A stretch of 64,000 bases of DNA from the NCBI RefSeq assembly GCF_003226255.1, contig NZ_QJST01000012.1, positions 1 through 64,000 of the forward strand. The letters run 5' to 3'. The notes under the pieces are model-generated. The model was not told where the DNA came from. It ran no database searches and saw only the letters and a list, made by a program, of their open reading frames with translations. The stretch comes from Idiomarina fontislapidosi (lineage in GTDB: Bacteria > Pseudomonadota > Gammaproteobacteria > Enterobacterales > Alteromonadaceae). Below, piece after piece: positions 33,785 through 61,921 of the stretch. Both the position numbers and the translations under genes were made by a program. Position 1 is the stretch's first letter. Each line of letters begins with the position of its first letter.

Positions 33785-35614
33785 ATGACCAATGGACTTT
33801 GGGGAGGCCGGTTTAGCGCGCCTCCTAGCCAAGCCTTTCAGCAGTTTAATGACTCCTTGCCATTTGACTGTGTCCTGCTTGAATTTGATATTCGGGGCAG
33901 TATTGCTTGGGCGCAATCATTGCAACACGTGGGTGTGTTAACGGCTGATGAATACAGCCATATTCAACACGCGCTACATGACATCTTGCAGCATTGGAGT
34001 GGTTGCTTAGGCGATGTCGCGGTTGCTGGTGATGAGGATATTCATGCGTTTATTGAGCGTCAACTGATTGAGCGTATTGGCGATCTCGGCAAAAAGCTAC
34101 ACACGGGACGAAGCCGTAATGACCAAGTGGCTACCGATATTCGACTGTGGTGTCGTGCGCAAGTTGAAACCCAGTGGCAGCGTCTCCAGCAACTCATTGC
34201 AGCGCTTGCCGACTTAGCTGAGCGCGAAGCAACCACGGTCATCCCTGGTTATACTCATTTACAAAGAGCGCAACCGGTGCTGTTTTCGCACTGGTGTTTA
34301 GCCTATGTTGAGATGTTTAAGCGCGACCAGGCGCGATTAAAAGATGCATTAACGCGCATTAATGTGTGCCCATTGGGAGCTGGCGCCCTGGCAGGCACGG
34401 CTTATCCCGTAGATAGAACCGACTTAGCACATCGCTTAGGTTTCAGTGAACCCGCTACAAACAGTCTTGATGCGGTGTCGGATCGCGACTTTATTGTAGA
34501 GCTGTTATCGATCGCCTCGTTGTCAATGATCCACCTATCTCGTATGGCAGAAGACCTTATTTTCTATGCGAGCGGTGAAGCGGGTTTCGTTGAATTAGCC
34601 GATGATGTGAGCAGTGGCTCTTCGCTGATGCCACAGAAGAAAAACCCCGACGCATTGGAACTTATTCGTGGTAAGTCGGGACGTGTCGTGGGCGCGCACG
34701 TGGGCCTGCTGATGACGCTGAAAGCATTGCCGCTGGCCTATAACAAAGATATGCAAGAAGACAAAGAAGGTCTGTTTACAAGTTTCACACAGTGGGGCGC
34801 CTCTATCGATATCGCGCAACAGTGTGTCAATGGACTGACTGTGAATCGACCACGTGCACTGCAGGCGGCACAAGGCGGCTATTCTAATGCCACTGAACTT
34901 GCCGACTACCTGGTGAGTAAGGGCGTGCCTTTTCGGCATGCTCATGAGGTGGTGGGCGAGTGTGTACAAATTGGACTGCAACAGCAAACGCCGTTAGAAG
35001 CTCTCCCATTGGCGACGTTGCAGAGCGTCCATTCGGCTATTGAAGACGACGTTTACGATTGGCTAAGCATTGATGCATTGCTTTCTAAACGCAACGCCTT
35101 GGGTGGCACCAGTGTTGAACAAACGCAATCTGCACTGAAAATGCTGCAACAAGAGCTTCGTATTGTTGTACGTGATGCAACACTTGATGATATCGACGCA
35201 ATCGTAGGACTCGTTGGACACTGGGCCGGGGCTGGCGAAAACTTGCCGCGAGCGAAAGACGATATCGTGCACTCGATTAACGAGTTCGCTGTTACCGAAG
35301 TGGATGGACAAGTCACGGGGTGTGCCTCACTCTACATCTATACAACAGGTTTAGCTGAAATTCGGTCGTTAGGTGTGAACCCTAAAAGCCAAGTGCGTGG
35401 GCAAGGGCGCATGCTGGTGAAGCATTTATGTCATAAAGCACGACAGATCCGTTTAAAGCGTGTAATCGTTTTAACACGTGTCCCAGATTTCTTTAAGCAG
35501 CAAGGCTTTAGTGTGTGTGAAAAAGCACAATTGCCAGAGAAAGTCATGAAAGACTGTGAGCTGTGTCCTAAAAAGCATTGTTGTGACGAAATCGCCATGG
35601 AGTATGGGCTGTAG
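33785..35614 (+). CDS. argH: Fused argininosuccinate lyase / N-acetylglutamate synthase ArgH(A)
   Basis: Protein of 609 residues combining two enzymes. Residues 1 to about 455 are argininosuccinate lyase: LWGGRF start, [15 protein letters not shown], and the fumarase-family signature [12 protein letters not shown] (about residue 280). Residues about 460-609 form a GNAT acetyltransferase domain ([26 protein letters not shown], the acetyl-CoA loop [10 protein letters not shown]) with a cysteine-rich tail ([10 protein letters not shown]). This fusion is known from Moritella, Vibrio and Alteromonas relatives, where it performs both the first committed and the last step of the pathway. No separate argA is visible in the window. 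Confidence 0.95.
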
Positions 35615-35624: not shown

Positions 35625-35687
35625 CGACTTCACCCGCTACGTTTCAGTTGGGTTACTCTATTATGAAGATTTGATGACAGTTCGTGT

Positions 35688-35721
35688 TTGTCACAAATTT
35701 GTCACGCTTGCTCTCTAACAT
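35688..35721 (+). promoter_or_regulatory. Pho box and -10 of the lipoprotein/receptor operon
   Basis: Two identical TTGTCAC heptamers at 35688-35694 and 35699-35705, separated by AAAT, give an 11-base direct repeat like the PhoB consensus (CTGTCAT-N4-CTGTCAY). A -10-like TAACAT lies at 35716-35721, ten bases after the second repeat, which is the spacing of PhoB class promoters that lack a -35. The start codon of the lipoprotein gene is about 50 bases further on. I infer activation by PhoB at low phosphate. Confidence 0.8.
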
Positions 35722-35769
35722 TCTCCTCGACTTTTAACCTATGGATAACATCCAAGTCGGGAGAACCCA

Positions 35770-38532
35770 ATGAATCTGAATTCTTTGTTCAAAGCATCTG
35801 CAATCGCAGCAGCCTTAGCGCTTGCTGGTTGTGGCGGCGACATCAACATCAACTCAGGCGCTGACGTAGAGCAGCCAGACAACGGCAACGGCGGCGACAA
35901 TGGTGGCGATAACGGCGGCGACAACGGCGCTGACTTGCCGGGCACTACAAGCGGCTCACTTTCGTTAGCAGCGTCGGAAGCGCTGGGCGAAGAAGTACAA
36001 GTTCAAGTAATCTCTGGTCGTATCACAGCTGACACCACGTTGGTTAACAGCTTAGATGACGGCACTACTGTTATGTACGCTATCGATGGACCTACTTTCG
36101 TTGGTGGCGATAACACCGACTCAGCAACACTGACTATCGAGCCAGGTACAGTAGTATTTGGTCGTCAAGGTAACGACTACCTTGTCATCAGCCGTGGCTC
36201 ACAAATCATGGCAGACGGTACTGCCGAAGCGCCAATCATCATGACTTCATCACAAGACGTTTTGGGTGAAGAGACTGGCGCAGGCCAATGGGGTGGTTTG
36301 GTTATCTTAGGTAACGCATCAAGCAACAAGTGCCCTGCAGACGGCTCTGATTGTGCATTGCAAGTTGAGGGTGCTGAAGAAGGCGCAGTATTCGGCGGAA
36401 CTCAAGACGACGATAACTCTGGTACGCTTCGTTATTTCGTTGTTAAGCACGCTGGTTTCGAAATCGCACCTGATAACGAATTAAACGGTATCACTTTTGG
36501 TGGCGTAGGTTCAGGCACGACTGTTGACTACTTACAAGTTCACGGTAACGCGGACGACGGTATCGAAATGTTCGGTGGTACGGTTAACTTCAAGCACGTT
36601 GTATTAACCAGCATGCAAGATGACAGCATCGACTGGGATAACGGCTATCGCGGTAAGATGCAATACGTTTACGTTGAGCAAGATCCAAACGGTGGCGACG
36701 CTAACCGTGGTATCGAAGCAGATAACGACGGCAGCGATCCGGCTGCAACCCCAATGTCTAACCCAACGATTGCTAACCTGACTATCATCGGTAATAACTT
36801 CCAAGGTGAAGATTCATCTGAAGGTATCTACCTACGTGAAGGTACTGGCGCGCAATTGTACAACGTTGTTGTAACCGGTCCATCTGAAATGGGCGAGTGT
36901 TTAGAAATCGAAGGCAGCCCGCAATCACAAGCTAATCTCGGCGATGGCACTATCACCATGGAAAACTCTTTCATGGCGTGTAACAACGGCGAAAACTTCA
37001 AGTTTGGTGCCAACGACGTAGACCTTGAAGACTGGTTCCTTAACCAGCAAGAAGCTAACGAAGTAAGCACTTCAATTATGCTAGGTGCGAACGGTCAGCC
37101 AATGGCTAACTCACCGCTATTAGGTGCAGGTCAAGACGTTGCGAATACCGTTGACGGTAGCTTCTTCGAATCAGTTGATTTTGTGGGTGCAGTACCGGGT
37201 GACAGTGATTGGCGTCAAGGTTGGGCATTTGGTTTCGGCGGCGGTGAAGTCACTGCGGGCGGTTCAGAAGCACCTGTAGCAGGTTGCCCAGCGGGTACTG
37301 AAGCAATTACTCCAGTTGACGGCTCAACCACAACGTGTGAGTTAGAAGGTGCTTACACTAGCGACTTGACCTTAACAGCTGGCAACATCTACGCGTTAAG
37401 CGGTCCAGTATTCATGGGTGGCGACAATGCTGACTCTATGACGCTGACTATCGAGCCAGGTGTGACGCTTTACGGCCGTACTGGTGGTGATTACTTAGTG
37501 ATTAGCCGTGGTTCTGACATCATGGCAGAAGGTACTGCAGAAGAACCTATCACTTTAACTTCAGCAGCTTATGTTGAAACGGGCGAAGGTCAGCCTGGTC
37601 AGTGGGGTGGTTTGGTTATCTTGGGTAACGCACCAAGCAACAAATGTCCATCTGACGGTTCTGACTGCGCATTGCAAGTTGAAGGTGCAGCAGAAGGCGC
37701 TGTATTCGGTGGTACAGACTCAGCTGATAACTCAGGTACGTTGCGCTATGTTCGCGTAATGAACGGCGGTTTCGAAATCGCACCTGATAACGAATTGAAC
37801 GGTATCACCTTTGGTGGTGTTGGTTCTGCAACAACAGTTGAGTACTTGCAAGTTCACAACAACTCAGACGACGGCATCGAAATGTTCGGTGGTGCAGTTA
37901 ACTTCAAGTATGTTGTGTTAACTAACATGCAAGACGACAGCATTGACTGGGATAACGGTTATCAAGGTAAATTGCAGTATGTATTGGTTCGCCAGAACCC
38001 AGACAACTCTGATGCAAACCGTGGTATCGAAGCAGATAACGACGGTAGCAACCCAGCTGCAACGCCAATGTCTAACCCAACGATTGCTAACTTGACTATT
38101 ATTGGTAACACGTTCGAAGGTGAAGACTCTTCTGAAGGTATCTACCTACGTGAAGGTACTCAGGCTACTTTCTACAACACTATCGTTTCAGGTCCTGCAG
38201 GCATGGGCGAGTGTTTGGAAGTTGAGAGCAACCCAGTGAGCCAGCAGCACTTGCAAGACGGTGGCATCGCGATGACTCACTCAGTTATGGCATGTGACAA
38301 CGGCGAGAACTTCAAGTTCGGTGCGGGTGATGTTGACTTGGAAACTTGGTTCACCGGTCAAGAAGGCAACAGCATTGTTGCAGCAGCTGATGCACTTAAC
38401 GGTATCTTCAGCATCTCTGACGCAACTGCAGCAGACCTCAGCGGCGATACATTCTTCGATAACGCATCATTCGTAGGTGCAGTTGAAGAAGGTAACGACT
38501 GGACTGCAGGTTGGACTGTAGGATTAGAGTAA
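35770..38532 (+). CDS. Large duplicated surface lipoprotein, probable parallel beta-helix, partner of TonB receptor
   Basis: Protein of 920 residues with a lipoprotein signal (ALALAGC, Cys21; Gly at +2 favours the outer membrane). A tether of GGDN repeats follows (about residues 36-55). Two homologous units, about residues 80-500 and 520-920, are offset by exactly 438 residues. Each has a TLTIEPGT start, a DYLVISRGS strand, GQWGGLVILGNA, GTLRYVRV, DDGIEMFGG, DDSIDWDNGY, GIEADNDGS and an EGIYLREG motif. These resemble the rungs of a right-handed beta-helix with acidic loops. Relatives occur beside TonB-dependent receptors in marine Gammaproteobacteria and Bacteroidetes, without a proven function that I know of. 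A Pho box lies upstream, so I infer a substrate-capturing partner for uptake of phosphate or a phosphorylated compound. The acidic loops may bind Ca2+. Confidence 0.85.
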   Translation: MNLNSLFKASAIAAALALAGCGGDININSGADVEQPDNGNGGDNGGDNGGDNGADLPGTTSGSLSLAASEALGEEVQVQVISGRITADTTLVNSLDDGTTVMYAIDGPTFVGGDNTDSATLTIEPGTVVFGRQGNDYLVISRGSQIMADGTAEAPIIMTSSQDVLGEETGAGQWGGLVILGNASSNKCPADGSDCALQVEGAEEGAVFGGTQDDDNSGTLRYFVVKHAGFEIAPDNELNGITFGGVGSGTTVDYLQVHGNADDGIEMFGGTVNFKHVVLTSMQDDSIDWDNGYRGKMQYVYVEQDPNGGDANRGIEADNDGSDPAATPMSNPTIANLTIIGNNFQGEDSSEGIYLREGTGAQLYNVVVTGPSEMGECLEIEGSPQSQANLGDGTITMENSFMACNNGENFKFGANDVDLEDWFLNQQEANEVSTSIMLGANGQPMANSPLLGAGQDVANTVDGSFFESVDFVGAVPGDSDWRQGWAFGFGGGEVTAGGSEAPVAGCPAGTEAITPVDGSTTTCELEGAYTSDLTLTAGNIYALSGPVFMGGDNADSMTLTIEPGVTLYGRTGGDYLVISRGSDIMAEGTAEEPITLTSAAYVETGEGQPGQWGGLVILGNAPSNKCPSDGSDCALQVEGAAEGAVFGGTDSADNSGTLRYVRVMNGGFEIAPDNELNGITFGGVGSATTVEYLQVHNNSDDGIEMFGGAVNFKYVVLTNMQDDSIDWDNGYQGKLQYVLVRQNPDNSDANRGIEADNDGSNPAATPMSNPTIANLTIIGNTFEGEDSSEGIYLREGTQATFYNTIVSGPAGMGECLEVESNPVSQQHLQDGGIAMTHSVMACDNGENFKFGAGDVDLETWFTGQEGNSIVAAADALNGIFSISDATAADLSGDTFFDNASFVGAVEEGNDWTAGWTVGLE
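36000..38532 (+). repeat. Internal tandem duplication, 1314-base period, in the lipoprotein gene
   Basis: The same blocks recur 1314 bases apart (438 codons). The ACTATCGAGCCAGG block at 36133 recurs at 37447, and the TGGGGTGGTTTGGTTATC block near 36287 recurs near 37601. Long stretches are close to identical at DNA level, which points to a fairly recent duplication, ongoing gene conversion, or strong shared codon bias. The unit joins are marked by a short linker with two cysteines (about residues 500-515). Confidence 0.85.
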
Positions 38533-38561
38533 CCCCTTAAACAGCACATCGTGCTCTTTAA

Positions 38562-38596
38562 AAGCCGTGAGGTGTTCTTCGGGACACCTCCGGCTT
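38562..38596 (+). promoter_or_regulatory. Intergenic stem-loop between lipoprotein and receptor genes
   Basis: Arms AAGCCG-T-GAGGTGT (38562-38575) and ACACCTC-CGGCTT (38584-38596) form a 13-base-pair stem with one bulged T and an eight-base loop. No T-tract follows, so it is not an ordinary terminator. It may protect the 3' end of the lipoprotein message, or partly attenuate transcription so that less receptor than lipoprotein is made. Confidence 0.65.
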
Positions 38597-38623
38597 CCAT
38601 AGTAACAAGAGGTAACTAATATC

Positions 38624-41290
38624 ATGCGTGCCAACCGATTCCCTCTGGCAAATATTTCTCTCGCAGTGCTTGCGTGTTTAGCAACACCTGCGGCTCTCGC
38701 TTGGCAAGATGCTGAGCAAACTGAAACTGAAACAGAGCAACAAGCCAGCAATCCTGAACAAGTCATCGAGGAAGTGGTCACCACGGGCACTCGTTTGCAA
38801 GGTAGCGCGGCCGCCGTTGTTCAAGAACGTAAAGAGCAGGCGTTCGTTGCTGATATCATGGGTGCAGATCAAATCTCGCGTACCGGTGACTCGGACGCTG
38901 CAGCTGCATTACGCCGTATCACTGGCTTAACGCTGGTTGATGGCAAGTTTATCTATGTACGTGGTTTGGGTGAGCGTTATTCAAGTACTCAGTTGAACGG
39001 TATGTCGGTACCGAGTCCTGACCCAACACGTGCTGTTATTCCACTGGATTTATTCCCTGCTGATATCATTTCAAGCTTGGCAGTTCAGAAGTCTTATTCG
39101 GCATCAATGCCTGCCAATTTTGGTGGTGGTAACGTTGATATCCGTTTGAAGTCGGCACCTTCAGAAGAAGTGTTTAACGCCTCGGTTAAAGTGGGTGGCA
39201 ACTCTGAGAATTTTGATGACGCCTACTGGTATGACGGTGGAAGTAGCTGGAAAGGTAAAGATGACGGCACTCGTGCAGCACCGCAAGTGTTGCAGAACTT
39301 GTGGGGACAACGCACGTTTCTTGATGAAATTAGCATCGAGGAAAACCGCGACGTCGCTTTAGCGCTTAACCGTGACTATGACCCAACGTTACAGTCAATC
39401 GATCCAGACTATGGCATCGACTTGACCTACGGTAACCGCTACGATTTGACTGACAAATGGGCGGTAGGCTTTTTAGCGACCGCTGCATACGATAATGAAT
39501 GGGAAGTGTCTGAGCAGTTTTTGGGTGAAAACTTCCGTTTGAACCCCGACGATACATACACTTTGGTTCGTGGCTGGGATGACGTTGAATCAACCGAACA
39601 CCAAGTGACATGGTCGGGTATGTTTACCTTTGGCTTAAACTACGGCGCTAACCATAAAGTTGATTTCAGTCACGTTATTTTAAACGATACCGAAGATCGC
39701 CTGCGTGAGAAGTTGGGTAATAACAACAACATCAACTTTGGTTCAAACCAGCGTATTCGCGAGTTTGATGTGAACTACCAAGAGCGTCGCATGGTGGCAA
39801 ACCAAATTAAGGGTATGCACACCTTCACCGACTGGAACTTCTTGGGTGTTGATTGGAAATACTCAAAATCTCGTTCTAGCCGTTACGCACCAGGCAACTT
39901 AGAAACGCGCTTCATTATCACGGACCGTAATGAAGATGGCGTATTCGATCGTGAAGGCGAGAGTAACTTAACTAACGCGACAACCGCCGCGCGTTACTCA
40001 TTCCAAGACCTTAATGACGAAGTTGAAAACTGGGGTGGTAATGTGACCCTGCCTATCATGCTTGATGATTGGGATATCACATTGAAAGCGGGCGCAGATT
40101 TCGTACAGAAAACGCGTTATGCGACTAACCGTCGTTTTGACATCAATACCCGTGCGTTCTCAGACTCAAGCGTTTTGAATGGCTATCAGTTAGGCGAAAT
40201 ACTTAATGATGACCTCATCGCGAATACGGAGCTGAGTTTCACGCCTATCTTAAACGACACCACTGTTGCGGGCGATGATTACATCTCTGCACAGACGATT
40301 GATGCCTACTATTTTGAAGGCGACGTGTTCTTGAAAGATGAGTGGCGTATCACCGCGGGTGTGCGTTGGGAAGATTTCCGTCAAGTAGTCGTACCTTTGG
40401 TACCCACTAACGGTCAAATTGATTTACCAACGAATCCAACGACGGATGATTTAGCTGACTTAGCGTTCCAAGAAGATGACTTCTATCCATCACTGGCGCT
40501 GACTTACTTCTTAACTGACGAACAGCAGTTGCGTTTTAGTTACGGACAAACGGTCGTACGTCCTGACTTACGTGAAGTTTCAAGCTCGACGTACTTGGAT
40601 CCGCTGACTCTGTTCCCAGTAGGCGGTACGCCAGGTCTACGTACAACGTCTATTAAGAACTATGATGCACGTTGGGAATGGTACCAAGAAAACGGCGATA
40701 CCTTGTCACTGGGTATGTTCTACAAAGACATGACCGACCCGATTGAATCGGTTCAGTCACCTGGGCAGGATGGTCCGCCATTGGTGCGTATCGCGAACGC
40801 GGAAACGGGTGAAGTCTACGGTGTCGAGATGGAGTGGTTGAAGTCAATCAGCAACAACTTCTTCGCATCAGGTAACGTTACGTTGAGTGATTCAGAAATT
40901 CAGCTGAATACTCAGAACATCGTGGAACAAACCGGTGTTTCGACCTCGATTACTAATACTGAGCGTCGTTTGACAGGTCACTCAAAATGGGTCGTGAACA
41001 GCCAGCTAGGCTTTGACTCTGACAATGGTAAGCACTCTGCCTCGTTGGTTTACAACGTATTTGGTGAGCGCATTATCATTCCAGGTATCGATGGCCGTGG
41101 TGACTCATTCGAGCAACCGTTCCATAGTTTAGATGCGGTTTACAGCTACTACCCAGACTTTAATTCTCAGATCACGGTTAAGGTGCAAAACATCTTAAAC
41201 CAAGATAAAGAGATTGAGTTTGATGATACCTTGCTTCGTTCAGAAACACGTGGTGTTAGCTTCTCGTTAACCTACAAACGTGAATTCTAA
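38624..41290 (+). CDS. TonB-dependent outer-membrane receptor of the Pho-box operon
   Basis: Protein of 888 residues. The signal peptide is cut after AALA (about residue 26). A short Glu/Gln/Thr-rich stretch and a TonB-box-like IEEVVTTGTR (about residues 49-58) precede the plug domain (DSDAAAALRRITGLTLVDG, IYVRGLGERYSSTQLNG, ANFGGGNVDI). A 22-strand barrel follows, ending in aromatic FSLTYKREF. There is no N-terminal carboxypeptidase-like or signalling domain. It lies 91 bases after the lipoprotein gene with AGAGG before the ATG. Genomic context indicates energy-dependent uptake of the compound the lipoprotein captures. Expression under phosphate limitation is inferred. Confidence 0.9.
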   Translation: MRANRFPLANISLAVLACLATPAALAWQDAEQTETETEQQASNPEQVIEEVVTTGTRLQGSAAAVVQERKEQAFVADIMGADQISRTGDSDAAAALRRITGLTLVDGKFIYVRGLGERYSSTQLNGMSVPSPDPTRAVIPLDLFPADIISSLAVQKSYSASMPANFGGGNVDIRLKSAPSEEVFNASVKVGGNSENFDDAYWYDGGSSWKGKDDGTRAAPQVLQNLWGQRTFLDEISIEENRDVALALNRDYDPTLQSIDPDYGIDLTYGNRYDLTDKWAVGFLATAAYDNEWEVSEQFLGENFRLNPDDTYTLVRGWDDVESTEHQVTWSGMFTFGLNYGANHKVDFSHVILNDTEDRLREKLGNNNNINFGSNQRIREFDVNYQERRMVANQIKGMHTFTDWNFLGVDWKYSKSRSSRYAPGNLETRFIITDRNEDGVFDREGESNLTNATTAARYSFQDLNDEVENWGGNVTLPIMLDDWDITLKAGADFVQKTRYATNRRFDINTRAFSDSSVLNGYQLGEILNDDLIANTELSFTPILNDTTVAGDDYISAQTIDAYYFEGDVFLKDEWRITAGVRWEDFRQVVVPLVPTNGQIDLPTNPTTDDLADLAFQEDDFYPSLALTYFLTDEQQLRFSYGQTVVRPDLREVSSSTYLDPLTLFPVGGTPGLRTTSIKNYDARWEWYQENGDTLSLGMFYKDMTDPIESVQSPGQDGPPLVRIANAETGEVYGVEMEWLKSISNNFFASGNVTLSDSEIQLNTQNIVEQTGVSTSITNTERRLTGHSKWVVNSQLGFDSDNGKHSASLVYNVFGERIIIPGIDGRGDSFEQPFHSLDAVYSYYPDFNSQITVKVQNILNQDKEIEFDDTLLRSETRGVSFSLTYKREF

Positions 41291-41309: not shown

Positions 41310-41342
41310 AAAAAGCGATGCTAACTAGCATCGCTTTTTTTT
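41310..41342. terminator. Bidirectional terminator between receptor and mscS genes
   Basis: Stem GCGATGCT / AGCATCGC with loop AACT, flanked by A5 on the left and T8 on the right, so it works on both strands. The stop codon of the minus-strand MscS gene lies inside the stem. Confidence 0.9.
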
Positions 41343-45515: not shown

Positions 45516-47909
45516 ATGAGTAGACAATTTAGTACGGTATGGTGGCTTGCGCTGTGGGCAGCTTTGGTCAGTTTTCCATTTTTTACCTACGCAGCAGAAT
45601 CGCCCGGGGCGTTGACTTTTATCATTAAAGATCAGACCACAGACAGGCCGCTGGCGAATGTGGCGATTACGCTGATAGAGCGGGAAACAAGATCTACAAA
45701 GTCGATAGAAACTGACGCCGAGGGCCGTGTCATCATTGAACAACTCGATCCGGGCTTATATTCCGTGGCTGTGAATAAAAGCGGGTTTGCATCACTTTAT
45801 GAGCCGAGTGTGCGCGTGGTGACGCGGAAAAACCTCAAAATTACGTTTGAACTGCTCGAAGTTAGAGCGGAGGCTTTAGAAAGAATCTCGGTCGAAGGTC
45901 AGCGAGCTGAGGCTTATGCATCCGCTAGCAGCACCTACTTGGACAGAGAAGCGTTGCGCAGTGCCGTTGGAGGAGGAGCCGATCCGCTGCTCTCCTTGGA
46001 CGGCTTGCCGGGCTTGGCATCCGCCAGTGAATTTGCCAGTTTTAGTGTTCGCGGCCGCGGACCCAGAGATAATTTGCTGTTCGTTGACGAGTTTCCTTTT
46101 GATAAAGCAATTCACTTTGATGCAACGTTAGGTGAAGAGGAAGATGTTGGCGGTGGTGGTCGTTTCTCGATTTTTGCACCCAACGTCATCAGTGGTGCCG
46201 AGTTCTCGCCGGGTGGCTGGAGCGCCGCTTATGGCGGCCGGGCTGCGTCGCTACTCAAACTGGAAGTGGCTGACGGAAACCCAAGCCCTTCCGCTAGCTT
46301 TCGCTACGATCTGGCAGGCTATGAAGTGGGCTATGACGGCCCTAGCGGTATTACCGAAGATGCCACAATGCTGGTCTCGGCACGGCGACTGGATTTTGGT
46401 TCGCTGTTCGAAACTATCGACGAGCTCGACATTGGCGAACCGGTGTTGAGAGATGTCATCATCAAGTCGGTCACCCCCATTAACGATAAACACACGTTAG
46501 AGGTGTTGCTTATCGACACTCACGAAGATTATACGCGCGGCGTGACTCACGTAGCCGAATCGCCTAATTTTGAAGATGTTGCGTTGCAAGACTCTGAGCA
46601 AGACAGTGACCTGTACGGTCTGACGTTGCGCTCGTGGGTTGGTGACGACTCGGTGTGGAGTAACAAGATCTACTATCGCCAAAGCGATAAACTGAGCTCC
46701 GAAGGCGAGGCGTTCCCTGATCTGGTACCCGAGGGCTCACCCGCGTCCAGCTTTCCGGTACGTGAAAACATCATTACCATCGGTGAAGGTGAAACGGAGA
46801 TTGGCTGGCGCAGCGACTTTGAAACATTGAACCAATGGGGCGTATTAAGTGCCGGTATTCGATTAACCCAGCTTGAGCTGGATTATGATACGGTTTTGGA
46901 TGGTACCTGGACTCGGTTTGTTTATGACGACGATGACTTCAGAGCCGACCCGGATCAAAAGTATATCGTGTTGACGCCTGAGAACATCAATTCGTCACTG
47001 AACCGGAAAGAAACCAATTATGCGGGTTATGTCGAGCAGGTTTTTGAGCGCGGCGATTGGGATTTTAGCACGGGACTGAGGTTAGAGCGGGACGGCTTTG
47101 CAGACGAAAGCCTGGTCTCGCCTCGCTTTAGCGTTAACTGGCGGCCGAGTGCAAAAGTACGATACTTTGCGACTGCTGGCCTCTTTCATCAGTCACCTCG
47201 GTTTTTAGAGCTGGCCGCAAACGAGTCGAACAACCTTAAGAACGAGGACATCAGGCACAGTAGTGTCGGTTTTCAGTTTTTTCCTAGTGAGCGTTGGTCG
47301 GTGTTAACGGAAGCCTATTATCAAAGCCTCGATAATCTGGTGGTGGATCTGGATCGCGCAAACGGAACCTTTGCCAACATTGGCGAGGGCTCGTCCTACG
47401 GTGTGGATATTGTCGCAAACGGCATGATCAGAGAGGGTTTATACGCGACCGCAACATACTCCTATAATGATGCGGTCGTCGACCGCAAAGATGGTCGCGG
47501 TGATGTAGCGGCTGAGTTTAGTCGTGAGCATGTTGCCACGCTCGGTTTGACCTGGGAAATTAACGACCGCTGGAAAGTGGCGGGTCGCTACAAATACCTG
47601 TCCGGTCGGCCTGATGATCAATTTATCATTCATGCTGACGTGTTGGGACCGGGGCAACCGGTGCGCTATTCAAAAGAAATCACCGAGCGTAATATCGGTC
47701 GTAAAAGCGGTTCCGGCTTGTTCAATGTCCGCGTTGACTATCGGCGTGCGTTTGGCCCAATCGATGTAACGGCCTTTCTAGACGTTATCAACGTAACGGC
47801 AGCGTCCTCGAGCGACGACGCAGAGTTTGACTATCGACGAGGTGTGCAAGTAAAAGACGAAAGCGAAGCAGAGCCTCTGATTGGCCTGCGAGTGGATTAT
47901 GCCTGGTAA
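45516..47909 (+). CDS. TonB-dependent receptor with N-terminal carboxypeptidase-regulatory-like domain
   Basis: Outer-membrane protein of 797 residues. The signal peptide ends near FTYAA (residue 27). An Ig-like regulatory domain (about residues 32-115, FIIKDQTTDRPLANVAITL, TDAEGRVIIEQLDPGLYSV) precedes the plug (GGGADPLLSLDGLPGLASASEF, SVRGRGPRDNLLFVDEF, YGGRAASLLKLEV). The barrel ends in RVDYAW. Unlike most SusC proteins there is no SusD-like neighbour. Two-component genes follow 13 bases downstream, so the receptor and the sensor probably share a substrate. GAGAGGG precedes the ATG. Confidence 0.88.
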   Translation: MSRQFSTVWWLALWAALVSFPFFTYAAESPGALTFIIKDQTTDRPLANVAITLIERETRSTKSIETDAEGRVIIEQLDPGLYSVAVNKSGFASLYEPSVRVVTRKNLKITFELLEVRAEALERISVEGQRAEAYASASSTYLDREALRSAVGGGADPLLSLDGLPGLASASEFASFSVRGRGPRDNLLFVDEFPFDKAIHFDATLGEEEDVGGGGRFSIFAPNVISGAEFSPGGWSAAYGGRAASLLKLEVADGNPSPSASFRYDLAGYEVGYDGPSGITEDATMLVSARRLDFGSLFETIDELDIGEPVLRDVIIKSVTPINDKHTLEVLLIDTHEDYTRGVTHVAESPNFEDVALQDSEQDSDLYGLTLRSWVGDDSVWSNKIYYRQSDKLSSEGEAFPDLVPEGSPASSFPVRENIITIGEGETEIGWRSDFETLNQWGVLSAGIRLTQLELDYDTVLDGTWTRFVYDDDDFRADPDQKYIVLTPENINSSLNRKETNYAGYVEQVFERGDWDFSTGLRLERDGFADESLVSPRFSVNWRPSAKVRYFATAGLFHQSPRFLELAANESNNLKNEDIRHSSVGFQFFPSERWSVLTEAYYQSLDNLVVDLDRANGTFANIGEGSSYGVDIVANGMIREGLYATATYSYNDAVVDRKDGRGDVAAEFSREHVATLGLTWEINDRWKVAGRYKYLSGRPDDQFIIHADVLGPGQPVRYSKEITERNIGRKSGSGLFNVRVDYRRAFGPIDVTAFLDVINVTAASSSDDAEFDYRRGVQVKDESEAEPLIGLRVDYAW

Positions 47910-47922
47910 AGGAGAATAACAA

Positions 47923-48627
47923 ATGGCACACGTTCTTGGTGCAGAGCCTAGCAGAGTGTTGATTGTCGAAGACAATCGCGACATCTGCGGCAACATTGCG
48001 GCATACCTCGAAAAGCATTGTTACCTACTGGATTTTGCCTACGATGGTATCAGTGCATTGCACCTGGCGTTGACTCACCCATTTGACGTGATTGTTCTCG
48101 ATCTTATGCTTCCAGGGATGGATGGCTTAAGCTTTTGTCAAAAGTTGCGTGCTGAGGGCAATTTAGATACGCCGGTACTTATGCTGACGGCGAGAGACAC
48201 ATTGGATGATAAAATTAAGGGGTTCGCAGCGGGAGCGGACGACTATTTAGTGAAACCTTTCGCCTTACAGGAACTGCATGCACGACTGCAGGCGCTTCGT
48301 AAACGCAACCGCGGAAGAACCGACAACCTGTTAACGGTGGGGGACTTGACCTTGAACCGCTCCACCCGACAAGTTCATCGCGCGGGACAACGAATCGAGC
48401 TCAACCCTGCGGGCATGAAACTGCTGCAGCGACTGATGGAGGAGGCACCCTCGGTTGTTACACGTGATGCGCTCGAAACCTTATTGTGGGCTGATGAGCC
48501 GCCAGACGGTGACGCACTTCGATCGCATATGTACAAACTGCGGCAGGCGATTGATCGGCCATTTGAGCGAGCCTTAATTCACACCGTACATCGTATTGGG
48601 TACCGAATCGCAGAAGGTGCTGAGTAA
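47923..48627 (+). CDS. OmpR-family response regulator
   Basis: Protein of 234 residues. The receiver domain has the acidic pair in IVEDNRD, the phospho-acceptor aspartate in VIVLDLMLPGMDG (about residue 65), T in LMLTARD and K in YLVKPF. The C-terminal winged-helix domain (LTVGDLTLNRSTRQVHRAGQ to HTVHRIGYRIA) binds DNA. It starts 13 bases after the receptor gene, and its stop overlaps the kinase start (TAATG). It probably controls the receptor gene, as is common for such clusters. Confidence 0.93.
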   Translation: MAHVLGAEPSRVLIVEDNRDICGNIAAYLEKHCYLLDFAYDGISALHLALTHPFDVIVLDLMLPGMDGLSFCQKLRAEGNLDTPVLMLTARDTLDDKIKGFAAGADDYLVKPFALQELHARLQALRKRNRGRTDNLLTVGDLTLNRSTRQVHRAGQRIELNPAGMKLLQRLMEEAPSVVTRDALETLLWADEPPDGDALRSHMYKLRQAIDRPFERALIHTVHRIGYRIAEGAE

Positions 48628-60463: not shown

Positions 60464-61921
60464 GTGGTAAAATCCTCAACTAGAGATGCTCGAGTCATTT
60501 ACGTACTTGAGTCCAATACAGAGCGTAAGAAGCAACTACAGACAGTGCTCGACTTTATGGGCGAACTCGTTGAATGCCATACCCAGTGGTTAACCGATGA
60601 GCAGTTAGACAATGCGCTATGCATTATTGCTGGCGATTGTATTGATGACCTCGAGTCATTGGCTAATGAGTATCCCAACCTGCCCTTTATCCGTGCTAAT
60701 GAACGCCACGAGAGTGCGTTTCGAAAAGCCAATGTTGTCGGGCAAATCACCGATTCGTTAAGCTACGATGAGCTCTCGCACCTAATTCGATATTGCCAAG
60801 CCTATCACCGCCATTTACCTAGCCAACGCGCGCAATCCGGTCAGGTTGCTGATGTGCTTGAAACCAAATTAGTAGGTCAAAGCTACGATATCCGCGAGAT
60901 TCGTAAACTCATCCAGCAGGTGGCGGGCAGCGAGGCAAACGTACTTGTGTTAGGAGAGTCCGGTACAGGTAAAGAGGTGGTGGCACGCGGCATACACCAG
61001 CTGTCATCGCGCTGTCATGGACCCTTCGTACCGGTTAACTGCGGTGCGATCCCCCCAGATTTGCTTGAAAGTGAACTCTTCGGACATGAAAAAGGCGCGT
61101 TTACTGGCGCTATTGGCGTGCGCAAGGGCCGTTTCGAGTTAGCCCAGGGTGGCACACTATTTTTGGACGAAATTGGTGATATGCCTTTGCCTATGCAGGT
61201 GAAGCTATTACGTGTTTTGCAAGAGCGCATTTTCGAACGCATTGGTGGTAGCAAAAGTATAACTGCTGACGTTCGAGTCGTTGCGGCAACACACCGTCAA
61301 TTAGAAGACATGATTGCCGATGGAAGATTTCGTGAGGACCTTTATTACCGCCTAAACGTGTTTCCTATCGAGGTGCCTGCGCTCCGTGAACGCTCAGAGG
61401 ACGTGCCTTTATTACTGCGTGAAATTGCTCGGCGCTTTAAAGAAGAGCGCGGTATTGGGATACGCTTTACCGAGCGTGCGATGCAGTCTCTAGAGGCTCA
61501 CCCTTGGCCGGGCAACGTTCGGGAGCTATCTAACTTGATTGAGCGACTCTCTATTACTCACCCTAATCAGTTGGTTGATGTAAGTGATTTACCGCACAAA
61601 TATAGGCACATCGATAGTGAAGAAATCACGCCAGAATACCCAGACGAGTTGCAGGAAAGAGATGCGCTGAACGCCATTTTTTCTGATGACGACGAAGATG
61701 ATCTCGACGAAGAAGAACTTGTTTCGTTACCGACTTCTGCTGCCGAAATCCCGGAAACGGGACTCAATCTAAAAGATATGCTGGCTGAGATTGAAGTTGA
61801 AATGATTAAACAAGCACTTGAACGTGCAGACGGAGTGGTTGCTAAAGCCGCTGAGTTACTGAGTATGAGACGCACAACTTTGGTTGAAAAAATGAAGAAG
61901 TACGACATCGCTAAAGTATAG
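60464..61921 (+). CDS. flrA: Sigma-54-dependent flagellar master regulator FlrA/FleQ
   Basis: Protein of 485 residues. An N-terminal FleQ-type receiver-like domain without a phospho-Asp is followed by an AAA+ domain: Walker [16 protein letters not shown], sigma-54 contact loop [16 protein letters not shown], Walker [12 protein letters not shown], and the arginine-rich sensor region. After an acidic linker of about 40 residues comes a Fis-type helix-turn-helix ([26 protein letters not shown]). It activates class II flagellar operons. Starts at GTG 60464 with AAAGGG before it. The sigma-54 promoter of flrB lies just downstream. Confidence 0.93.

Follow-up and report, generated by a model that had tools for sequence, protein, structure and literature searches.

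The DNA considered here, referred to as the window, is a stretch of 64,000 nucleotides from Idiomarina fontislapidosi (contig NZ_QJST01000012.1, positions 1 to 64,000). Our subject is a pair of genes on its forward strand that encode a lipoprotein (Lip, 35770-38532, 920 residues, with two beta-helix domains) and, immediately downstream, a TonB-dependent receptor (TBDR, 38624-41290, 888 residues). Comparison with related loci makes it probable that the two genes form an operon for scavenging phosphorus at the outer membrane, controlled by PhoB and of the kind known from ElpS and CC0171 of Caulobacter crescentus, whose function would most likely be either the capture and TonB-driven import, or the mobilisation at the surface, of a phosphorus compound. 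The locus presents a conserved promoter box, synteny with phosphate genes, a recurrent pairing of the two genes, a beta-helix domain architecture in Lip and, elsewhere in the genome, a TonB operon near phoB. A preliminary description made from the DNA letters had proposed a PhoB-type promoter ahead of a lipoprotein of 920 residues, a gap of 91 bases and a TonB receptor. All of these elements were confirmed, and the reading of the box and the pairing of the genes appear well supported by the conservation of the box, the phoBR-pstS synteny and the half-sites before the TonB operon; the interpretation offered there is, as a whole, partly supported.

The Pho box and its conservation

The motif TTGTCAC-N4-TTGTCAC occupies positions 35688-35705 of the forward strand and reads TTGTCACAAATTTGTCAC, with identical heptamers starting at 35688 and 35699, 11 bases apart. 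It is followed, ten bases past the second heptamer, by the -10-like hexamer TAACAT (35716-35721, forward strand), which was recognised by eye and for which relatives have similar hexamers at about the same spacing. The exact 18-mer is unique in the 2.86-Mb genome of the strain and has no other match in the window at two or fewer mismatches, where shuffled sequences lead one to expect 0.62. A simple sigma-70 scan found no promoter at the site, as is expected if PhoB, which replaces a -35 element, does so here. Upstream, at 35670-35679 on the forward strand, lies an inverted PhoB-type half-site, TTTGATGACA, also recognised by eye, and TTTTGTGACA or TTTTATGACA was seen at the same position in many homologous promoters. 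A ribosome-binding-site-like GGGAGAA (35759-35765, forward strand) is present in both of the cassette types found in the genus.

Matches to Lip were found in 53 of 98 genomes searched and in 18 of the 19 genomes of the same genus, that of the strain included. A scan of GTDB genomes gave at least 531 confirmed stretches, of which the best 80 (3-20 kb long) were kept and are called the named loci; they come from Gammaproteobacteria, Alphaproteobacteria, Bacteroidota and other taxa, and the nearest named homologues among the matches listed are those of an Idiomarinaceae metagenome-assembled genome (MAG; 92%) and Idiomarina aquatica (85%). Promoters were scored with a matrix trained solely on 30 pstS promoters and with a neutral spacer, against 161 control upstream regions remaining after removal of open reading frames (ORFs) that matched Pho, TBDR, TonB or type II secretion system (T2SS) references; the distant set had 264 controls of its own, and loci L058 and L060, whose stretches lack the start of the gene, were excluded. 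Lip promoters exceeded the 95th percentile of the controls in 18 of 18 same-genus loci, 30 of 33 other relatives and 26 of 29 named gammaproteobacterial (near) loci, and phoB promoters did so in 27 of 30 cases, although these rows share ancestry and in part recur, at the level of species, between the sets, and so are not independent. An earlier form of the test, now superseded, in which the 699 controls included Pho genes and the spacer was trained, had given 18/18, 25/34, 24/29 and, for the distant set, 8/45. The opposite strand of the Lip promoters also passes the 95th percentile in 22 of 51 loci, probably because of the inverted half-site that lies upstream in many of them.

That the box is fortuitous, or is read by another regulator of the OmpR family in an operon serving a different nutrient, we regard as very improbable. 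The half-sites of this regulator family are alike, and the PhoB model finds 39 regions in the strain's genome, of which one exceeds the model cut-off. Many receptors of the TIGR01782 type are thought to serve carbohydrates, and the NCBIfam TIGR01782 match of the window TBDR falls below the cut-off. Against such a reading stand the resemblance of the box to that of the strain's own pstS, its recurrence together with phoB-phoR-pstS synteny, and the response to phosphate of the published systems of the ElpS kind (PMC2996285; PMC8115612; papers are cited by PMC number, from excerpts). The genome itself has phoB, phoR and pst in a phoBR-pstSCAB-phoU cluster on contig C3, and Pho boxes also precede pstSCAB-phoU, ppk-ppx and the gene of a PhoD phosphatase.

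Other sites resembling the box were noted in passing. Near-matches lie at C2:162258 (in an ORF of 457 residues), C9:43669 (in one of 534 residues) and C1:432612. A Pho-box-like site (L201, G000:C2:22131-22148) stands before a PhoD-type phosphatase gene that by eye has TonB-receptor-like ORFs on both sides, and TTGTCACAAATTCGTCAC (L196, G000:C6:130883-130900) lies about 50 bases before the gene of an EAL-CBS-GGDEF protein, where it could possibly link phosphate status with cyclic-di-GMP.

Synteny, pairing and replacement of the two genes

A phoB gene (at least 50% identity) lies within the stretch in 12 of the 80 named loci. Eight of these have the order phoB-phoR-pstS-Lip-TBDR: Aliiglaciecola lipolytica (two records), Alteromonas marina, A. 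abrolhosensis, Alteromonas sp. IB21, Ningiella, Glaciecola pallidula and Salinimonas. In three of them, both Aliiglaciecola records and that of A. abrolhosensis (L117, L118 and L135), one extra ORF separates pstS from Lip, and that of A. abrolhosensis (L135) belongs to the 2OG-Fe(II) oxygenase family (PF13640). In the remaining four, from Rheinheimera (two), Arsukibacterium and a MAG, phoBR is divergent from Lip-TBDR. Pst or PhoU matches also occur near the distant homologues of Kordiimonas (L141, L151) and of L173, L175 and L187. When 36 genomes were compared, phoB was found within 12 kb of Lip in 6 of the 31 that carry Lip. The pairing of Lip with a receptor is more widespread, a TBDR match being present in 71 of the 80 named loci, in some without immediate adjacency, and in 51 of 53 relative loci, where the two misses have almost no downstream DNA; L175, L177 and L178 are without a TBDR and are not short on both sides.

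The window TBDR has the Pfam domains Plug and TonB_dep_Rec. The 91 bases between Lip and TBDR fold as a whole at -34.1 kcal/mol (z -6.3) and contain an RNA hairpin at 38562-38596 on the forward strand. Among relatives (48 loci examined, five left out, 42 with gaps of at least 40 nt) the median z of this gap is -3.55, with 23 of 42 below -3, compared with a median of -0.7 and 20 of 112 below -3 for control gaps. The folding suggests that the hairpin likely leads to the production of more Lip than TBDR. Beyond the TBDR gene, a terminator-like hairpin followed by a T run was identified by folding at 41310-41339 (forward strand) and does not appear in the consensus scan.

In the strain's own genome Lip follows argH, away from phoB, and an MscS-like gene lies downstream of TBDR on the opposite strand. 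Seven genomes of the genus have a two-domain Lip together with a TBDR that is 84-100% identical to that of the window over the approximately 470 residues compared, while eleven have a one-domain Lip only 30-33% identical to the window Lip, together with a TBDR 42-43% identical. The 95-bp promoter, in contrast, retains 71-85% identity to that of the window where Lip has one domain and 77-95% in the remaining two-domain loci. Upstream, argH is matched in 9 of the 11 one-domain loci (69-73%) and 6 of the 7 two-domain loci; downstream, MscS is matched in 8 of the 11 loci with a one-domain Lip (72-80%), which is also the arrangement of the window; several one-domain loci have about 1 kb of additional DNA between argH and Lip. 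As the promoter and neighbours are largely kept while Lip and TBDR differ, these comparisons indicate that the pair has been replaced as a whole behind a conserved Pho promoter within the genus. In a tree built, with a long-branched outgroup, from phoB plus the 900 bases that follow it in 13 members of the genus, the six two-domain genomes form one clade (98/97), which is consistent with a single replacement event. In other genera, the Lip found at the phoR-pstS site has one, two or three domains, depending on the locus.

Two further observations concern the surroundings of the pair in the window. The ORF at 33785-35614 (609 residues) resembles argininosuccinate lyase with a C-terminal acetyltransferase-like extension, in the manner of the ArgHA fusion type. 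A further TonB-dependent protein of the outer membrane, which has a carboxypeptidase-regulatory domain, is encoded at 45516-48627, and a response-regulator-like gene comes after it.

A TonB operon near phoB

The genome of the strain contains two operons of the composition TtpB-TtpC-ExbB-ExbD-TonB-TtpD (DUF3450-ExbB-ExbB-ExbD-TonB-TPR). One of them (G000:C3:183451-188552; L244:4952-10053) starts 7.1 kb before phoB, with the genes of a porin and a permease-like protein lying in between, and has three PhoB-type half-sites ahead of it at a spacing of 11, ATGACAT, GCGTCAT and CTGTCAC. The second (C7:36082-41101) lacks any site above threshold in the 1 kb that precedes it, the only site in its 12-kb stretch lying 3.1 kb upstream in a coding ORF. 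Throughout the genus a DUF3450/TtpB gene is found 7.0-8.7 kb from phoB (19 of 19 genomes), and half-sites lie upstream of all ten phoB-linked copies read: that of the strain and nine further copies which by eye show GTCAT-N4-[CT]TGTCA[CT], a pattern missing from six genus copies located elsewhere. Operons with the same kinds of gene (DUF3450, a large ExbB-like protein, ExbB, ExbD, TonB and a TPR protein) are known from Vibrio vulnificus, in which the TtpB2-TtpC2-ExbB2-ExbD2-TonB2-TtpD2 set serves iron uptake and is iron regulated (PMC6957404); the copy described here differs in its PhoB-type half-sites and its position 7 kb from phoB.

Lip-TBDR adjoins DUF3450-ExbB-ExbB-ExbD-TonB-TPR genes in 14 of the 80 named loci (the stretches of L126 and L127 end before the last of these genes) and on two Pseudoalteromonas plasmids. 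Eight of the distant loci have an ExbB/ExbD/TonB set of lower similarity in the vicinity of Lip (L160, L167, L172, L180, L184, L186, L187 and L188, with L186 matched by the second ExbB query alone). Two or more DUF3450 copies are present in 30 of 31 family genomes with Lip as opposed to 2 of 5 without (n=36; Fisher p 0.005, uncorrected for kinship); the exception, G028, has Lip and a single copy, and the second copy of G034, which is without Lip, is divergent. The sole genome of the genus without a Lip match, G014, has a premature stop in each of the phoB-linked DUF3450 and TtpC genes (L276, G014:C15:151000-168000), with phoB, phoR, pstS and the remaining genes of the TonB operon open. This single case may reflect the co-decay of Lip and the TonB operon, or possibly an assembly error. 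Judging from these arrangements, the Lip-TBDR system seems to have a phosphate-controlled TonB power supply of its own, and the presence of PhoB-type half-sites before the TonB operon suggests energised transport.

Known relatives, fold of the lipoprotein and likely function

ElpS (CC0170) of C. crescentus is a surface-exposed lipoprotein induced by phosphate starvation and encoded beside the TBDR CC0171 and T2SS genes; its authors noted its conservation in Shewanella and Bacteroides and suggested a role in phosphate mobilisation (PMC2996285). Lip likewise has an LAGC lipobox, a TBDR immediately downstream and a predicted link with phosphate starvation, and the T2SS synteny recurs with alphaproteobacterial homologues of Lip. 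T2SS genes follow Lip-TBDR in 11 of the 80 named loci, as they do on a Sphingomonas plasmid, in the published cc0170-cc0171-gsp order and, among the homologues found, in Alphaproteobacteria only. Queries with Sphingomonas GspC, GspD and GspE detected no T2SS gene next to Lip in gammaproteobacterial loci, and the window pair, unlike the ElpS locus, has the MscS-like gene directly downstream. The T2SS neighbourhood of ElpS has been published as conserved in a few species only (PMC2996285) and adjacency was therefore not treated as obligatory. A further difference is that ElpS, of about 50 kDa, has about one domain and Lip has two. Identity to Lip is 34-37% for the Sphingomonas homologue that has the TBDR-gspC/N-D-E-F order (best E 8e-50) and 40% for a homologue from an uncultured member of the Caulobacterales (L148). 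By way of these alphaproteobacterial homologues, with their order of lipoprotein, TBDR and gsp genes, and of the description of ElpS rather than its sequence, Lip-TBDR is most likely of the ElpS/CC0171 kind.

The lipoproteins FI, FII and FIII of Flavobacterium johnsoniae, which respond to phosphate starvation and are 31-36% identical to ElpS, form a second published group, in which FI and FII adjoin induced TonB-dependent transporters (TBDTs) and FII lies in the PhoBR cluster (PMC8115612). The Lip-TBDR pairs of Alteromonas resemble, by description, FII and a TBDT in their position beside phoBR. F. johnsoniae, however, belongs to the Bacteroidetes, two of its lipoproteins are encoded downstream of their TBDTs, in the reverse order (PMC8115612), and the TBDTs carry PF13715, which a Pfam search did not find in the window TBDR. 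The pairing of a surface lipoprotein with a TonB-dependent receptor also recalls SusCD and PusCD, from which the window pair differs in that Pfam shows Lip as a beta-helix protein with no SusD domain (PF07980/PF14322) and the TBDR as lacking a CarbopepD-type domain. The preliminary description had called the relatives of Lip uncharacterised; ElpS (PMC2996285) and FI, FII and FIII (PMC8115612) are in fact published phosphate-starvation lipoproteins, so that the kind itself is already known.

Lip begins with a lipoprotein signal peptide ending in the lipobox LAGC (35770-35832, forward strand; residues 18-21, Cys21). The CGGDI that follows from it does not vary among gammaproteobacterial relatives in an alignment of 11 rows, but in a 29-row alignment near-invariance is left only for the Cys and one Gly. 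The beta-helix type assigned to Lip at the outset was borne out by its only Pfam match, PF13229 (Beta_helix), at 27.4 bits just over the cut-off of 25.9, and by the best matches of its model in the PDB, which are right-handed beta-helix proteins. Going beyond that description, Lip proved to be a tandem duplication, its halves being 65% identical over 409 residues: model and self-comparison place domain 1 at residues 81-489 (36010-37236) and domain 2 at residues 525-919 (37342-38526), both on the forward strand. The AlphaFold2 model built from the 29-row alignment (mean pLDDT 86.8, pTM 0.55) is beta-rich in two halves. By their length and by a motif that recurs in them, relatives seem to have one, two or three such domains (approximately 420-610, 740-1050 and 1170-1370 residues). 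In a tree of 62 beta-helix domains, in which the row pair of L186 is one domain counted twice, copies often cluster by lineage, and this suggests repeated duplication or homogenisation inside Lip genes. Distant Bacteroidota homologues (L162, L168 and L169) reach 1458-2475 residues, lengths that suggest still more copies.

The fold bears on the possibility that Lip binds or cleaves polysaccharide and that the pair imports phosphorylated glycans, taking up phosphorus together with carbon, which we consider unlikely. In a Foldseek search of the PDB with the Lip model, PL6 alginate lyases held ranks 1 to 7 (E 5e-6 to 6e-4, TM 0.13-0.20 over the two-domain model), followed by Ag43, with pectate lyase and chondroitinase B lower; FI, FII and FIII have been likened to polygalacturonase and pectate lyase, and plant-glycan binding or hydrolysis has been proposed for FI and FII (PMC8115612). 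All TM-scores were low, however, and phage tailspikes matched as well, so the modelled fold is that of a generic right-handed beta-helix. Lip matches none of the lyase families of Pfam, a sequence search gave it no significant homologue in the PDB, and profile searches of the PDB with the TBDR and Lip alignments gave no significant match. Among the neighbouring ORFs scanned, moreover, the only carbohydrate-active family to match two or more was that of glucose/sorbosone dehydrogenase (twice).

That scan used Pfam at E <=1e-8 on 60 of 120 near and 70 of 217 far neighbour ORFs (130 in total), less those matching the Pho, TonB and T2SS references, and gave 69 and 59 families respectively, the first 25 of each including all that were matched by at least two ORFs. 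Among phosphatase and phytase families there was none with matches in at least two of these 130 ORFs, and this is one of several results that weigh against an operon for phosphorus import. The scan returned one PHO4, one PhoX, two PBP_like_2 and two RdgC matches, and no neighbouring enzyme points to a substrate. None of the 18 genomes of the genus with Lip has it within 12 kb of phoB. At three or fewer mismatches the genome contains 119+135 matches to the box and 141+145 to a reversed control, and for lack of an excess the motif by itself is weak evidence; it is its conservation that makes the box convincing and on which a chance motif was rejected. Within the window a better-scoring match lies at 61001-61018 (22.1 as against 18.4 bits), inside the coding ORF 60464-61921, which by eye is of the sigma-54 activator type; it was for that reason taken as chance, not as a second Pho box, and it is a caution for matrix scans generally. 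At the 99th percentile of the controls Lip promoters pass in only 8 of 18 same-genus, 1 of 33 other and 3 of 29 named near loci, four of the top-scoring controls (L129, L130, L156 and L158) carrying Pho-box-like sites themselves. Distant homologues seldom have this type of box (13 of 45 above the 95th percentile), so the enrichment upstream of homologues anticipated in the preliminary description holds for near relatives and is weak further away. Lastly, cc0171 was reported to be constitutive and not co-regulated with elpS, its deletion did not stop the production of ElpS, and intracellular phosphate was unchanged (data not shown there) (PMC2996285), which argues against a simple co-regulated importer. 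A 2024 study places various TBDRs in the PhoB regulon of Caulobacter (PMC11208175).

The independent expression reported for cc0171 would also suit a different role, in which Lip is a shed, ElpS-like surface factor that stimulates an extracellular phosphatase and is no part of an importer, the TBDR being separate or sensory. Overproduction of ElpS raised alkaline phosphatase activity in Caulobacter supernatants, and ElpS is cleaved and released; ElpS preparations, on the other hand, were themselves without phosphatase activity, and deletion of elpS left the activity unchanged (PMC2996285). The frequency with which a TBDR accompanies Lip, the joint replacement of the pair in the genus and the half-sites before the TonB operon all speak for transport, and we judge the shed-factor role quite unlikely.

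Under the preferred reading, that of a PhoB-controlled phosphorus-scavenging operon, scarcity of phosphate would cause phosphorylated PhoB to bind the tandem TTGTCAC half-sites and recruit RNA polymerase. The two-gene transcript would then yield large amounts of a surface lipoprotein, which has one, two or three beta-helix domains depending on the lineage, and, via the intergenic hairpin, probably a lesser amount of its partner TBDR. The lipoprotein would bind, or help to mobilise, a phosphorus-containing molecule at the cell surface, and the receptor would import it, driven by the TtpB-TtpC-ExbB-ExbD-TonB-TtpD system encoded next to phoBR-pst, with periplasmic enzymes and PstSCAB completing uptake. 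More tentatively, and in our estimation a little short of evenly balanced, the whole may be an all-PhoB outer-membrane phosphorus importer, composed of an interchangeable Lip/TBDR cassette at a fixed Pho promoter and its own Pho-controlled TonB motor, in which lineages swap pairs and vary the number of beta-helices to follow substrates or escape phages.

As far as the literature covered extends, a TtpB-TonB operon bearing half-sites, Lip proteins with one, two or three beta-helix domains and the paired replacement of Lip and TBDR were not found in print. The titles and abstracts retrieved by searches of open-licence PMC papers contain no Pho-box TtpB-TonB operon and no such pair in Alteromonadales, although a mention in body text may be missed. 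A Pho-linked TonB motor and paired replacement are absent from the passages drawn on in PMC2996285, PMC8115612, PMC11208175, PMC6957404, PMC11170926 and PMC5864184, and excerpts of papers on Pseudoalteromonas at low phosphate and on an Alteromonas transcriptome hold no data on the Lip-TBDR pair. The Pho-linked TonB motor and the replacement of paired cassettes behind a fixed Pho promoter may be new to specialists.

Marine heterotrophs are often phosphorus limited, and the passage of larger phosphorus compounds across their outer membrane is poorly understood. As phoBR-pst linkage occurs in culturable Alteromonas, Aliiglaciecola and Rheinheimera, the system is directly testable. If the reading is correct, the conserved pair of lipoprotein and TBDR, with its link to phosphate and a TonB motor dedicated to it, would constitute a concrete route across the outer membrane, and the ElpS and FI/FII lipoproteins would become parts of a defined system.

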